34,407 nucleotides of DNA, taken from positions 1-34,407 of the forward strand of contig JANQKS010000046.1 of the NCBI GenBank assembly GCA_028281005.1, given 5' to 3'. The stretch's first letter is position 1; every line of letters begins with the position of its first letter. Made by a program: the position numbers and the translations under genes. Below, piece by piece: positions 1 to 34,407 of this stretch. Origin of the DNA: Pseudomonadales bacterium (GTDB lineage Bacteria; Pseudomonadota; Gammaproteobacteria; Pseudomonadales; Azotimanducaceae). The notes under the pieces are model-generated. The model was not told the DNA's origin. It searched no databases and worked only from the letters and a program-made list of their open reading frames with translations.

Positions 1-124
1 CTGTGGGGTCCTTGGGCGTTGTTGGCGCACCTTGATGGGGCCCAACCCCACCGGCGGTACGCCGTCTAGCCCAAAAACCCCACAGACCCGCTGATCCTAT
101 GTTTTCAAGTGGTTTGAGCACTAG
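1..124 (+). repeat. Right part of a MITE-like palindromic repeat
   Basis: Bases 91-124 form a 34-bp terminal sequence running from CTGATCCTATG to GAGCACTAG. It matches the reverse complement of 34240-34273 at 33 of 34 positions. Inside it, bases 1-9 (CTGTGGGGT) pair with 77-85 (ACCCCACAG), and the arm 77-91 (ACCCCACAGACCCGC) is the exact reverse complement of 34375-34389. Bases 1-27 equal 34381-34407. I read this as the right part of a short non-autonomous element whose other part is at the far end of the window. No ORF lies inside it. The family is not one I recognise by name. Confidence 0.75.
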
Positions 125-140
125 TGCAAAACCACTTCAA
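121..140 (-). repeat. Degenerate inverted copy of the repeat end sharing the same CTAG
   Basis: Reading rightwards from the CTAG at 121-124, the bases CTAGTGCAAAACCACTTCAA resemble the repeat terminus CTAGTGCTCAAACCACTTGA. Thus 107-114 (AAGTGGTT) pairs perfectly with 130-137 (AACCACTT) around the palindrome GCACTAGTGC. This looks like two repeat ends placed head to head on one CTAG, the second one decayed. It lies directly upstream of the marR promoter. Confidence 0.45.
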
Positions 141-1974: not shown

Positions 1975-1985
1975 TTGAGCACTAG
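1975..1985 (+). repeat. Possible remnant of the CTAG repeat end at the CaiB stop codon
   Basis: TTGAGCACTAG is identical to the outermost 11 bases of the terminal repeat at 91-124. It sits between two convergent genes, and its CTAG contains the TAG stop of the CoA-transferase gene (1982-1984). Eleven bases is short enough for chance, so this is listed only because longer copies sit in similar places. Confidence 0.3.
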
Positions 1986-18646: not shown

Positions 18647-19825
18647 TTGCGCCGACCTAGTGCTCAAACCTATTCCGTGGCGCCGCTACCCGATGGTGGG
18701 TTTCTAGTCACCGAAAAACTGTTTGGCTTAAGGCAAGTGGCCGCCGACGGCAGCGTGTCGGACCTCATCGAAGGGGCGCCCACCGGTTTTGGTGAAGCAC
18801 TTGAACTGTACGGGCTTGATGCCGACGTTGGGCACATTATGGAGGTGGCACTGCATCCAGATTTTGCCAACAACGGCTGGGTGTATCTGCACTACGGACA
18901 TCGCTGCGCGGACTGTAATGAAGCCGCACGGGAATCGCTGTTACCGATATCCATGAATCGCGTCATCCGCGGCCGTATAAAGGACCGTCGGTGGGTTGAT
19001 GAAGAAGTGATATGGCAAGCGGATCCGGCGTTTTATTCGTCCATGGTGGATACTGCCGCAGGCAGGCGTTTGGCATTCGACGGCGACGGCTACTTGTTTT
19101 TTAGTGTCGGCTTAAAAGGGCTTAGCAACTTCGAAGGCCCGCAAGACCTAACTTCTCCCTACGGTAAGATCATGCGGCTGCACGATGACGGCCGTCTCCC
19201 CAGCGACAACCCCTTTGTCGGGCAAGCCGATGCGATGCCTGAAATTTGGACTTACGGCCACCGCTCTCCCCAAGGCCTGGAATACGACCGGCGCACTCAC
19301 ACCCTGTGGAGCACCGAACATGGTCCTCGCGGCGGTGACGAGGTAAATCTGCTGCGTCCTGGGCGCAATTATGGTTGGCCGCTCTATTCCAAAGGCATGG
19401 ACTACAACCTTACCGAGGTGGAGTACGGCAAAAATCTACATCTAGAAATTGCGCTAGAAGACATCGAGCAACCCGCTTACGACCTCACGCCATCACCGGC
19501 GGTGTCAAATCTAATGATTTACCACGGTGACAAGTTTCCCGCGTGGCAAGAAAATCTATTTGTTGGCTCGCTGAAAGCATCCGATCTGTTCCGACTGGTG
19601 GTGGAAGACGGCCAAATTGTACATGCGGAAACCATCATCACCGGCTTGGCACGCATACGTGACGTGGAAATGGGCCCTGATGGCTTAGTTTACCTACTGT
19701 TGGAAAACGCAGCGGGCGGCAAACTGGTGCGCCTGGTTCCAGACGCAGCACCAGCCTTGAACACCCTGCGCTCAAGCAAAAGCGGGCGTACGTCGCTGAC
19801 GGGCGCGTTGACGCCGCTTTTTTAA
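18647..19825 (+). CDS. 5'-truncated PQQ-type sugar (sorbosone/aldose) dehydrogenase
   Basis: The body matches soluble aldose sugar dehydrogenases of the YliI type: a six-bladed propeller with VAPLPDGGFLVTEK, FDGDGYLFFSVG, YGKIMRLHDDG, EIWTYGHRSPQGL, TEHGPRGGDEVN, GRNYGWPL and IRDVEMGPDGLVYLL. The frame opens only ten bases after the photolyase stop, at a weak TTG (18647), and enters the propeller at once. The signal peptide and first strand (about 40 residues in relatives, ending HPW-S/A-[LV]AF) are missing. The break coincides with CTAGTGCTCAAACC (18657-18670), the end of the dispersed repeat. Without a signal peptide the protein could not reach the periplasm where PQQ enzymes work, so it may be non-functional. 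The 3' end overlaps the convergent HPF-like gene by 54 bases. Confidence 0.7.
   Translation: MRRPSAQTYSVAPLPDGGFLVTEKLFGLRQVAADGSVSDLIEGAPTGFGEALELYGLDADVGHIMEVALHPDFANNGWVYLHYGHRCADCNEAARESLLPISMNRVIRGRIKDRRWVDEEVIWQADPAFYSSMVDTAAGRRLAFDGDGYLFFSVGLKGLSNFEGPQDLTSPYGKIMRLHDDGRLPSDNPFVGQADAMPEIWTYGHRSPQGLEYDRRTHTLWSTEHGPRGGDEVNLLRPGRNYGWPLYSKGMDYNLTEVEYGKNLHLEIALEDIEQPAYDLTPSPAVSNLMIYHGDKFPAWQENLFVGSLKASDLFRLVVEDGQIVHAETIITGLARIRDVEMGPDGLVYLLLENAAGGKLVRLVPDAAPALNTLRSSKSGRTSLTGALTPLF
18657..18670 (-). repeat. 14-bp match to the CTAG repeat end at a gene break
   Basis: CTAGTGCTCAAACC equals the outer 14 bases of the repeat terminus at 34240-34253. It lies precisely where the sugar dehydrogenase gene loses homology to its family. 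The same orientation as the right-end copy would put the element body to the right, that is, over the missing region; only this tip remains. Chance is possible for 14 bases but unlikely given the position. Confidence 0.45.
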
Positions 19826-27109: not shown

Positions 27110-28756
27110 ATGTTTTCAGAGACAATGTCGCAACACCCGCCGGCGCACGCAACCGGCCGCGTGATTACCTCTTTTATCTTCATCCTGTGCAGCATCTGCC
27201 TAGCCCCTTGGGGATACGCAACCCATAGCGAAGGTCATCCGCCTAACATCGTTTTCATCCTGACCGACGATCAGCGTTACGACGAAGTAGGTTTTCTTAA
27301 TCCGGTATTGGAAACGCCCAACATGGATGCGTTAGCCGCTGAGGGCGTGCATTTCAAAAACGCCTTTGTCACAACCGCGCTGTGTTCCCCCAGCCGCGCC
27401 AGCATCCTCACCGGGCAAATGATGCACAACCATGGGGTGATCGATAACAACCGACCGTTGCCAACCGGTCTCGAACTATTTCCCGAGCGAATGCAGGCGG
27501 CGGGCTATCAAACAGCATTTGTCGGCAAATGGCACATGGGCGGGGCAATAGCCGACCCGCGACCTGAGTTTGACTATTGGGTGAGTTTTGCAGGCCAAGG
27601 CAACTACTATCCCTTAAACGCCTTTGGCGCGCGCAGTATGCTGAACGTCAACGGTGAAAATGTTCCGCAGCAAGGATACATCACCGATGAGTTGACCGAT
27701 TACGCACTGCAGTTCCTCACCCAACGCGATCCCGAAAAACCTTTCTTTCTATATCTTTCTCACAAAGCGGTGCACGCGAATTTAGACCCGGCCGAGCGCC
27801 ACAAAGATCAATATGCTGACGCGGACATCAAAATCGGTGAGCCGCCTGCCGAAGACGCTGATGTGCCGATGTGGGTACACAACCAACGCAACAGCTGGCA
27901 TGGCGTGGACTTCCCCTACCACAGCGACCTGCCGCTGAAAGAGTTTAAACGCCAGTACCATCGTGCACTGAGCGCTGTAGACGACAGCCTCGGTCGCTTG
28001 CAGCAGTGGTTGGAGACACAGGGTTTGCACAAAAATACCGTGGTGATTCTCATGGGAGACAACGGCTTTCTATTTGGCGAGCACGGTCTGATCGATAAAA
28101 GAAACGCTTATGAGGAATCCATGCGGGTGCCGCTGCTCATGTCCGGCCCAGGGCATTTCCCGGCAGGGTCTGTGGTATATGAAATGGTGGCCAACATCGA
28201 CATCGCCCCGTCGCTGCTGACCTTGGCTGGCGCAGAGATCCCAACCCACTATGACGGCGCCAGCTTCATCGGTTTAGCAAAAGCCGACGCCGCAACAAAA
28301 CCCACCTGGCGCGACACGCTGACTTACGAGTACTACTGGGAATTTAACTACCCACACACCCCCACGGTGTTCGCCCTACGCACGGATCGCTTCAAGTACA
28401 TTCAATACCACGGTGTGTGGGATACCGAAGAGTTGTTTGACCTGCATGCCGATCCGCAGGAAGCCAACAATCTGATTGAGGATCCGGCGCTGCTCGCCAC
28501 CAAGCTAAAAATGCGCGAACAGCTGTACGCCTCTCTCGCTGACCAAGAGGGTCAACACAACATCCCGTTTTCGCGAAAATTTAATCAAGGCGCTGTGTTC
28601 CGGCATACAGATCGCAGCCAAGCGGCGGAATATCCGGACAAATGGCTGCGCCGAGGTGATGCTCCGGACCGTTGGGAGCACATCCTGCCGGACAGTGAGC
28701 AGAAGACGGAGCAGCTAAAGACAGTGAATGAAGTGCTGAACCAACGCGAACTCTGA
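27110..28756 (+). CDS. Secreted sulfatase (type I, formylglycine-dependent)
   Basis: I chose the ATG at 27110 (548 residues), preceded by GGGGAGG, because it puts a signal peptide (VITSFIFILCSICLAPWGYA) near the N-terminus; the longer frame from 26996 adds a polar stretch. The catalytic signature CSPSRASILTG begins at Cys92, which a formylglycine-generating enzyme must oxidise. Calcium ligands include NIVFILTDDQR (D53, D54) and later GDNGFLFGEHG. GKWHMGG is the conserved lysine/histidine block. It cleaves sulfate esters, likely of algal polysaccharide or another sulfated compound, in the periplasm or outside. No formylglycine-generating enzyme is in the window. The last codons (CGC GAA CTC TGA) belong to the 41-bp repeat that follows, so the natural C-terminus may have been altered. 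Confidence 0.9.
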   Translation: MFSETMSQHPPAHATGRVITSFIFILCSICLAPWGYATHSEGHPPNIVFILTDDQRYDEVGFLNPVLETPNMDALAAEGVHFKNAFVTTALCSPSRASILTGQMMHNHGVIDNNRPLPTGLELFPERMQAAGYQTAFVGKWHMGGAIADPRPEFDYWVSFAGQGNYYPLNAFGARSMLNVNGENVPQQGYITDELTDYALQFLTQRDPEKPFFLYLSHKAVHANLDPAERHKDQYADADIKIGEPPAEDADVPMWVHNQRNSWHGVDFPYHSDLPLKEFKRQYHRALSAVDDSLGRLQQWLETQGLHKNTVVILMGDNGFLFGEHGLIDKRNAYEESMRVPLLMSGPGHFPAGSVVYEMVANIDIAPSLLTLAGAEIPTHYDGASFIGLAKADAATKPTWRDTLTYEYYWEFNYPHTPTVFALRTDRFKYIQYHGVWDTEELFDLHADPQEANNLIEDPALLATKLKMREQLYASLADQEGQHNIPFSRKFNQGAVFRHTDRSQAAEYPDKWLRRGDAPDRWEHILPDSEQKTEQLKTVNEVLNQREL

Positions 28757-28786
28757 TCCTAAGTTTTCAAGTGGTTTGAGCACTAG
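28746..28786 (+). repeat. Solo 41-bp copy of the CTAG repeat end
   Basis: All 41 bases, from GCGAACTCTGATCC to GAGCACTAG, equal the reverse complement of 34240-34280. The match stops abruptly on the left, so only one end of the element is here. It fills the gap between two convergent genes: it contains the sulfatase stop TGA (28754-28756), and its CTAG contains the TAG of the VOC gene (28783-28785). Confidence 0.92.
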
Positions 28787-33854: not shown

Positions 33855-34239
33855 GCTTAAACCTCCTAAACCGAGTGGGTTTGGCGATCCCTCCTAACGT
33901 ATGCCACTCAATTAGACAGATTTAAATGAGAATTCACCCGGCGCGTAGCGCGCTTTCCCAGTGGAGGGGGGGTAGGGGTGCTCTACCTTGCGCACAGTAT
34001 CACCGCGAACTGCCAAGCTGTCAGCTGTTTTTTTTCGCCGCAGCATCCAACCGGGTCGACGCAACAGCGTCTCAACGTAACCGGCCACTAGTGCTCATAG
34101 ATCATGAGCGCGGATACGTTGACTGCAGCCATGGCCCCAAATTACACGCCAGCATAATTTCATGCTGCTCCCCTCAAGACGTGAGGGTCAAAATCCTACA
34201 CGCACCGCGCAGCAATAGCGCACGATTTTCTAAAAGCCC
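33855..34239. other. Gene-free interval before the right-end repeat
   Basis: No convincing coding frame was seen. It holds a G-rich run (33961-33977), an eight-T run at 34028-34035, a short perfect hairpin CCCTCA-AGACG-TGAGGG near 34174-34190, and CTAGTGCTCA (34088-34097), a 10-base match to the repeat end that may be chance. The promoter of the ATPase gene must lie at its left side. Confidence 0.5.
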
Positions 34240-34407
34240 CTAGTGCTCAAACCACTTGAAAACTTAGGATCAGAGTTCGCCAGCTTTGGGCTGGCAAGGA
34301 AGCGTGAGGAGTCATATCCGGATATTGCGACGAGCAATGACGCAGTTAGCGTAAAGCTGGCGATCTCCCACAGGGCGGGTCTGTGGGGTCCTTGGGCGTT
34401 GTTGGCG
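34240..34407 (-). repeat. Left part of the MITE-like palindromic repeat
   Basis: It starts with the terminus CTAGTGCTCAAACC and continues to CTTAGGATCAG (34240-34273), the inverted partner of 91-124. Inside are GCCAGC-TTT-GGGCTGGC (a small hairpin near 34280-34297), a second GCTGGC at about 34356-34361, and GCGGGTCTGTGGGGT (34375-34389), which is the exact complement of 77-91. The final 27 bases repeat 1-27. No ORF is present. It is a structured, non-coding, multicopy element or element half. Confidence 0.8.

Follow-up and report, generated by a model that had tools for sequence, protein, structure and literature searches.

A gene-less 265-bp MITE with a CTAG target, recurrent short scars and solo ends in a Pseudomonadales genome

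The window, by which we mean the whole stretch of DNA analysed (34,407 nucleotides, the entire contig C56 of the 5.14-Mb, 135-contig genome G000), carries at its two ends parts of a repeat that we confirmed as a real mobile element, 265 bp long, gene-less and of an otherwise ordinary kind. It has several of the features by which MITEs are recognised, namely a short body without a transposase, terminal inverted repeats (TIRs), a target site duplication and multiple similar dispersed copies. We consider it likely (a probability of roughly 0.8) that this MITE family is moved in trans and that its copies decay by short-repeat deletion into scars and solo ends. The parts of the repeat at the window ends are the following.

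1..124, plus strand: MITE copy that the contig start cuts into, leaving its right part (element positions 142-265); placed by alignment.
91..124, minus strand: right terminal inverted repeat, with the target CTAG at 121-124.
121..137, plus strand: diverged TIR-like stretch (CTAGTGCAAAACCACTT) just outside the right end; assigned from its sequence.
34240..34273, plus strand: left terminal inverted repeat, with the target CTAG at 34240-34243; 33 of 34 bases identical to the reverse complement of 91-124.
34240..34407, plus strand: MITE copy that the contig end cuts off after its left 168 bp (element positions 1-168); placed by alignment.

A sequence-only reading of this DNA had reported 34-bp inverted repeats agreeing at 33 of 34 positions and judged the symmetry hard to explain by chance. 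Both statements held: recounting 34240-34273 against 91-124 gave the same figure, and in 20 single-base shuffles the best inverted 34-mer between the window ends reached only 22. The nested 15-bp inverted repeat that it described (34375-34389 with 77-91) is exact, and its 265-bp unit (34240-34380 plus 1-124) recurs with the same anatomy in five uninterrupted copies of the genome (C47:45642-45906, C70:60675-60939, C75:35356-35620, C43:9498-9762 and C59:3091-3355). The span to which it assigned the repeat, 34240..34407, covers one half, the other half being window 1-124. The five full copies are 87.5-95.8% identical to one another (mean column identity 95%), and within a copy the TIR ends match each other at 30-34 of 34 bases; window 34240..34407 is 88-97% identical to these copies over 168 bases, and window 1..124 is 91-99% identical to the other listed copies. 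The ends scanned depart from their consensus at 0-4 of 34 bases. All edges of the full copies read CTAG, with the exception of the right edge of the C59 copy (CTGG), and contig C35 holds an internally shortened copy of 161 bp. None of the five full copies has a reading frame open throughout, in keeping with a short and gene-less MITE, and no transposase domain was found among the 20 window ORFs scanned; together with the high copy number, these observations bear out the earlier description of the repeat as MITE-like and non-autonomous.

A search for the repeat in its own genome, a check proposed with that description, returned several copies with CTAG edges, among them the five full ones. The 14-base end CTAGTGCTCAAACC has 134 exact occurrences there (66 + 68); the reversed control of this end gave 0. 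The same 14 bases were absent from all 199 other genomes of the same family covered by the search (another count of the family gives 206). The 141-bp left part matched one of 58 genomes, which was its own, the full element had no match in plasmids or phages, and a 22-base end pattern had none in viral contigs. Across 84,980 species genomes, a collection that possibly does not include the window's own genome, the 22-base pattern had two exact matches, in Methyloversatilis and Paenibacillus contigs; both lack CTAG and the element body, and we set them aside as chance. Judged by these searches, the element is a lineage-specific MITE family.

Two interrupted genes define the target. In contig C12, a 19-bp scar (C12:12647-12665; CTAG-11 bp-CTAG) lies within a D-aminoacylase-like gene whose two halves correspond to directly adjacent residues in four solved homologues (1m7j 70/71, 3gip 68/69, 9g5m 64/65 and 9kb3 70/71, the positions being ungapped extrapolations from the residue at which the right piece first aligns); against the Pfam profile, the alignment around the scar is looser (positions 20 and 32). 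By the homologue comparison, this scar adds 15 bp and the original gene had a single CTAG. In contig C59, a luciferase-like gene is interrupted by a full copy between Pfam positions 64 and 68, the two intervening codons being derived from one CTAG; this insertion point is good to about one residue, the left piece being a weak match (E 0.006). As read from these two genes, CTAG is a 4-bp target duplication that was present once before insertion, and the element proper therefore comprises 257 bp plus two CTAGs. The earlier account of inverted repeats ending in CTAG was correct as to the edges and needs amending in that CTAG is duplicated target outside the 257-bp element. Empty sites in relatives had been offered there as a sign of mobility: protein contiguity supplies one at C12 and, approximately, at C59, and no DNA-level empty site was seen in a relative. 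By eye, the flanks of the five full copies contain no duplication longer than CTAG, and the target has no strong consensus beyond it; the base just outside is most commonly A (47% of 102 unique flanks).

Interior places with a single element end number at least 34 (33 from one listing, plus one in contig C28). This count leaves out every match running to a contig end, the contig-end copy at C81:3298, in which a base is missing, and weak chance matches at C42:626 and C56:4443; the end searches detect remnants that retain some 14 bases of an end, and shorter scars escape them. Eleven of these places are stereotyped scars, six of 19 bp (C12, C19 twice, C34, C42 and C97) and five of 27 bp (C32, C55, C74 twice and C95, one of the C74 scars having one changed base), which read CTAG-11 bp-CTAG and CTAG-19 bp-CTAG and amount to net insertions of 15 bp and 23 bp. 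The far edge of the element is GCACTAG; the 19-bp scar fits a deletion between CACT in one TIR and the CACT of this edge, and the 27-bp scar a deletion between ACT and the ACT of the same edge. The other 23 places retain roughly 14 to 60 bp from one end, left in some and right in others where the sides are distinguishable, and a clear second CTAG is absent. Among them, the 28-bp end in C29 might represent a further, third type of scar, formed at a TAG microhomology; it is placed with the 23 because this sequence belongs to the element as well. Very short scars were sought in 433.7 kb (20 stretches plus window 301-34000, mostly long contigs), where TGC followed 21 of the 894 CTAGs (2.3%), compared with 1.0-1.8% for six control 4-mers; the match past CTAG extended over 3 bases in 15 cases, 13 in two, and 4, 7, 10 and 30 in one each, and no large class of very short scars was apparent in this sample. 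The two solo ends of the window itself, with the gene beside one of them and two possible short scars, are listed below.

1975..1985, minus strand: weak candidate for an 11-bp scar, CTAGTGCTCAA, located at the stop codon of a CoA-transferase gene.
18657..18670, plus strand: solo end, CTAG plus 10 bp of the element, joined directly to a GSDH gene whose 5' part is missing.
18671..19825, plus strand: host gene truncated at this solo end, with a glucose/sorbosone dehydrogenase (GSDH) domain (PF07995 positions 6-331).
28746..28786, minus strand: 41-bp solo end, from the left side of the element alone, with a sulfatase gene and a glyoxalase-like ORF as its neighbours on either side.
34088..34097, plus strand: possible 10-bp scar CTAGTGCTCA; weak.

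The solo end at 28746..28786 provides the final codons and the stop of the sulfatase ORF (sulfatase by domain, glyoxalase-like by sequence reading). At 18657, the GSDH frame begins at the domain and is without the anchor-like and cytochrome c motif part of its relatives. In the relatives from G009 (81% identical, 541-aa frame) and G030 (74% identical, 523-aa frame), an anchor-like stretch and a CxxCH motif lie upstream of the GSDH domain; this upstream part ends ...KTYSVAPLPDG in G009 and ...NTYSVAALPEG in G030, and the window resumes at that point after CTAGTGCTCAAACC. The G009 protein has 148 residues from its likely start to the junction that are absent from the window gene, a loss of about 148. 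ACC is a possible junction microhomology at 18657, where G030 reads ACACCTATTCC. The photolyase-like gene upstream of 18657 has no match at the relatives' loci within about 1.5 kb of flank. Extrapolating from this locus, deletion past the far edge into the flank may also have produced the other 22 of the 23 solo ends. The genome holds four GSDH-gene matches (C56, C81, C132 and C19), of which the one examined, C81, keeps the CxxCH-motif part.

We weighed other accounts of the repeat and of its remnants. The window ends are correctly oriented and agree over 27 identical bases (34381-34407 = 1-27), as they would in a 34-kb circle with the 265 bp as one copy at its closing point. However, any two similar repeat copies would often agree likewise, at least 43 of the 135 contigs begin within a repeat copy (hand count), other contigs also end in the repeat, many after 98-99 bp of it, and the contig has purE and purK type genes; we rejected the circular replicon on these grounds and hold it to be extremely improbable. 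Contig breaks in the repeat are what we would expect of a short-read assembly unable to cross it, and the window probably begins and ends in separate copies. Because the contig ends have only 27 bases in common, the joined 265 bp is a reconstruction only, and because the assembly breaks inside the repeat at many contigs, the join is no physical evidence for one copy. The sequence-only reading was thus right that both ends belong to one family, whereas its join does not stand as proof of one copy. Since so many contigs end in it, the repeat accounts for much of the assembly fragmentation. The hairpin in turn raises the question of a selected RNA or regulatory element, REP/BIME-like and no transposon: a long branched hairpin is predicted for one strand of the C47 copy (RNA -163 kcal/mol, z -15; DNA fold -88.5 kcal/mol, z -13), and 6 of 104 hairpin pairs have changed on both sides among the five copies. 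Covariation over these copies nevertheless gave a slightly unfavourable term (+1.08), with several pairs broken in some of them, and leaves selection on the hairpin unsupported; no Rfam family reached the gathering level in the window, and an intact copy gave only a microRNA match far under threshold. The target duplication, the insertions within genes (C12, C59) and the absence from relatives instead fit transposition, and a regulatory origin seems to us highly improbable.

As for the remnants, the solo ends might be rearrangement junctions, formed by inversion or translocation between copies or by one-ended transposition, and not deletions. The 47-bp remnant at C27:13556-13602 speaks for such an origin, having an esterase-like fragment on one side and, on the other, an unrelated stretch that looks coding and has no Pfam match; against it, the six 19-bp and five 27-bp scars retain CTAG at both edges and the C12 scar entailed no loss of host sequence, two points that are silent on the other 23 places. 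We regard rearrangement as unlikely. A further proposal concerns the parent of the family: the MITE would be a miniature IS701-family form, mobilised by a transposase of that family, for example the 402-aa protein encoded in contig C80. The C80 element (C80:2476-3866; L186:1386-2776) is intact-looking, with 1383 bp between CTAG repeats, a transposase matching NF033540 at 426 bits, ends TGCT/TACT and the end sequence TGCTACTGTGTTATAAAA; its CTAG duplication followed by TGCT is seen likewise in the MITE. A decayed fragment 91% identical to this element lies at C28:32217-32420. IS701 members are known to make repeats of 4 or 5 bp, with 4-9 bp for two members reported in the same source (PMC8024623). 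We examined 15 IS701 loci (12 plasmid, G072, G173 and C80), 13 of which have inverted ends near a ACTGTGTCA-like motif, the script giving no convincing inverted end pair for the Rhizobium and G173 loci; a 4-bp YTAR duplication, the class to which the CTAG of the MITE belongs, was among the three best end pairs at 8 of the 15 (C80 included; scoring favoured duplications). Past TGCT, however, C80 reads ACTGTGTTATAAAA and most relatives ACTGTGTCATAAA or close to it, whereas the MITE reads CAAACCACTTGAAAAC or CAAACCACTTTATAAC; among the 15 loci the MITE has only TGCT in common, with C80, the family motif ACTGTGTCATAAA is absent from it, and it differs from the family in having no transposase, so that ends homologous to those of an IS701 member were not found. 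Moreover, three PF01609 loci, L170 (C68), L171 (C64) and L172 (C74), also have CTAG-flanked inverted ends (12/16, 16/16 and 15/16; search limited to YTAR flanks), so CTAG by itself is not diagnostic of IS701. We consider the IS701 derivation doubtful.

A transposase gene with the same ends as the MITE, which the sequence-only reading had suggested looking for, did not come to light at the PF01609, PF13683 and PF13546 loci of the genome. Transposase profile matches numbered 8 for PF01609, 8 for PF13683 and 2 for PF13546. At none of the 16 PF01609 and PF13683 loci is the gene flanked on both sides by MITE-like ends; L176/L177 and L178 have single MITE ends only, and the C28 region of the PF13546 fragment holds only the single MITE end counted above.

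Our preferred reading, that of a MITE family moved in trans whose copies decay by deletion, would proceed as follows. A 257-bp element between CTAG duplicates, with TIRs of about 30 bp inside the CTAG, would be moved by a transposase encoded elsewhere, probably one of the DDE type. Copies would then decay via deletion between very short repeats. Where a deletion starts within one TIR and stops exactly at the outer edge of the other, CTAG-11 bp-CTAG or CTAG-19 bp-CTAG would remain; where it continues beyond the far edge and takes host DNA with it, only a solo end would be left, as in the one case next to a truncated gene. This instability probably stems from the long hairpin, through slipped replication or hairpin cleavage. 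A repair route through Ku and NHEJ was considered and rejected: the Ku match at C55:23072-23281 (L188) spans only profile positions 100-177 in a short frame, which is possibly a decayed NHEJ gene, and an apparent MITE scar next to it proved not to be one.

We advance only tentatively, and hold to be rather improbable as a whole, an extension of this reading to a self-pruning MITE, in which the hairpin body would make copies so prone to deletion that the family turns over into a few fixed scars, these scars would keep or add CTAG targets that new copies re-enter, and other deletions would erode neighbouring genes. Re-entry is suggested by a copy seated in the CTAG of a scar (C42:97-130) and by another directly at the CTAG of a 35-bp remnant (C24:1-127). 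Window 121-137 looks alike and may be an older scar sharing its CTAG with the right end.

In near-precise excision of Tn10 and Tn5, the element is lost between short direct repeats near its inverted ends and a stub remains. A stub likewise remains here, known from genome reading and with 11 or 19 bp between the CTAGs. Correia elements, ERIC and RUP are high-copy small TIR elements in a bacterial lineage that duplicate TA; the present MITE is likewise small and high-copy, with TIRs, but duplicates CTAG. The Chunjie MITE of Geobacter uraniireducens is reported as Chunjie-1 with a further 37 copies of 178-235 bp and 57 partial ones (PMC10969869). As described there, Chunjie is similar in being short and gene-less, with TIRs and direct repeats and with many partial copies besides the full ones; in contrast to that element of another host, the family described here has a CTAG target, is 265 bp long in each of its five full copies and shows exact scars that recur. 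The main text of the same review of prokaryotic MITEs does not contain the terms footprint, deletion, CTAG or IS701 (PMC10969869). In the literature searched, as judged by titles and the openings of abstracts and with few subscription papers, we recognised no account of such bacterial MITE scars.

Because one genome combines intact copies, exact scars and truncated-gene remnants, it offers a seldom available view of what becomes of a bacterial MITE once it has inserted, a fate that can be followed in the sequence and is open to testing. If the self-pruning reading is true, the family would measurably drive the loss of genes in one lineage.
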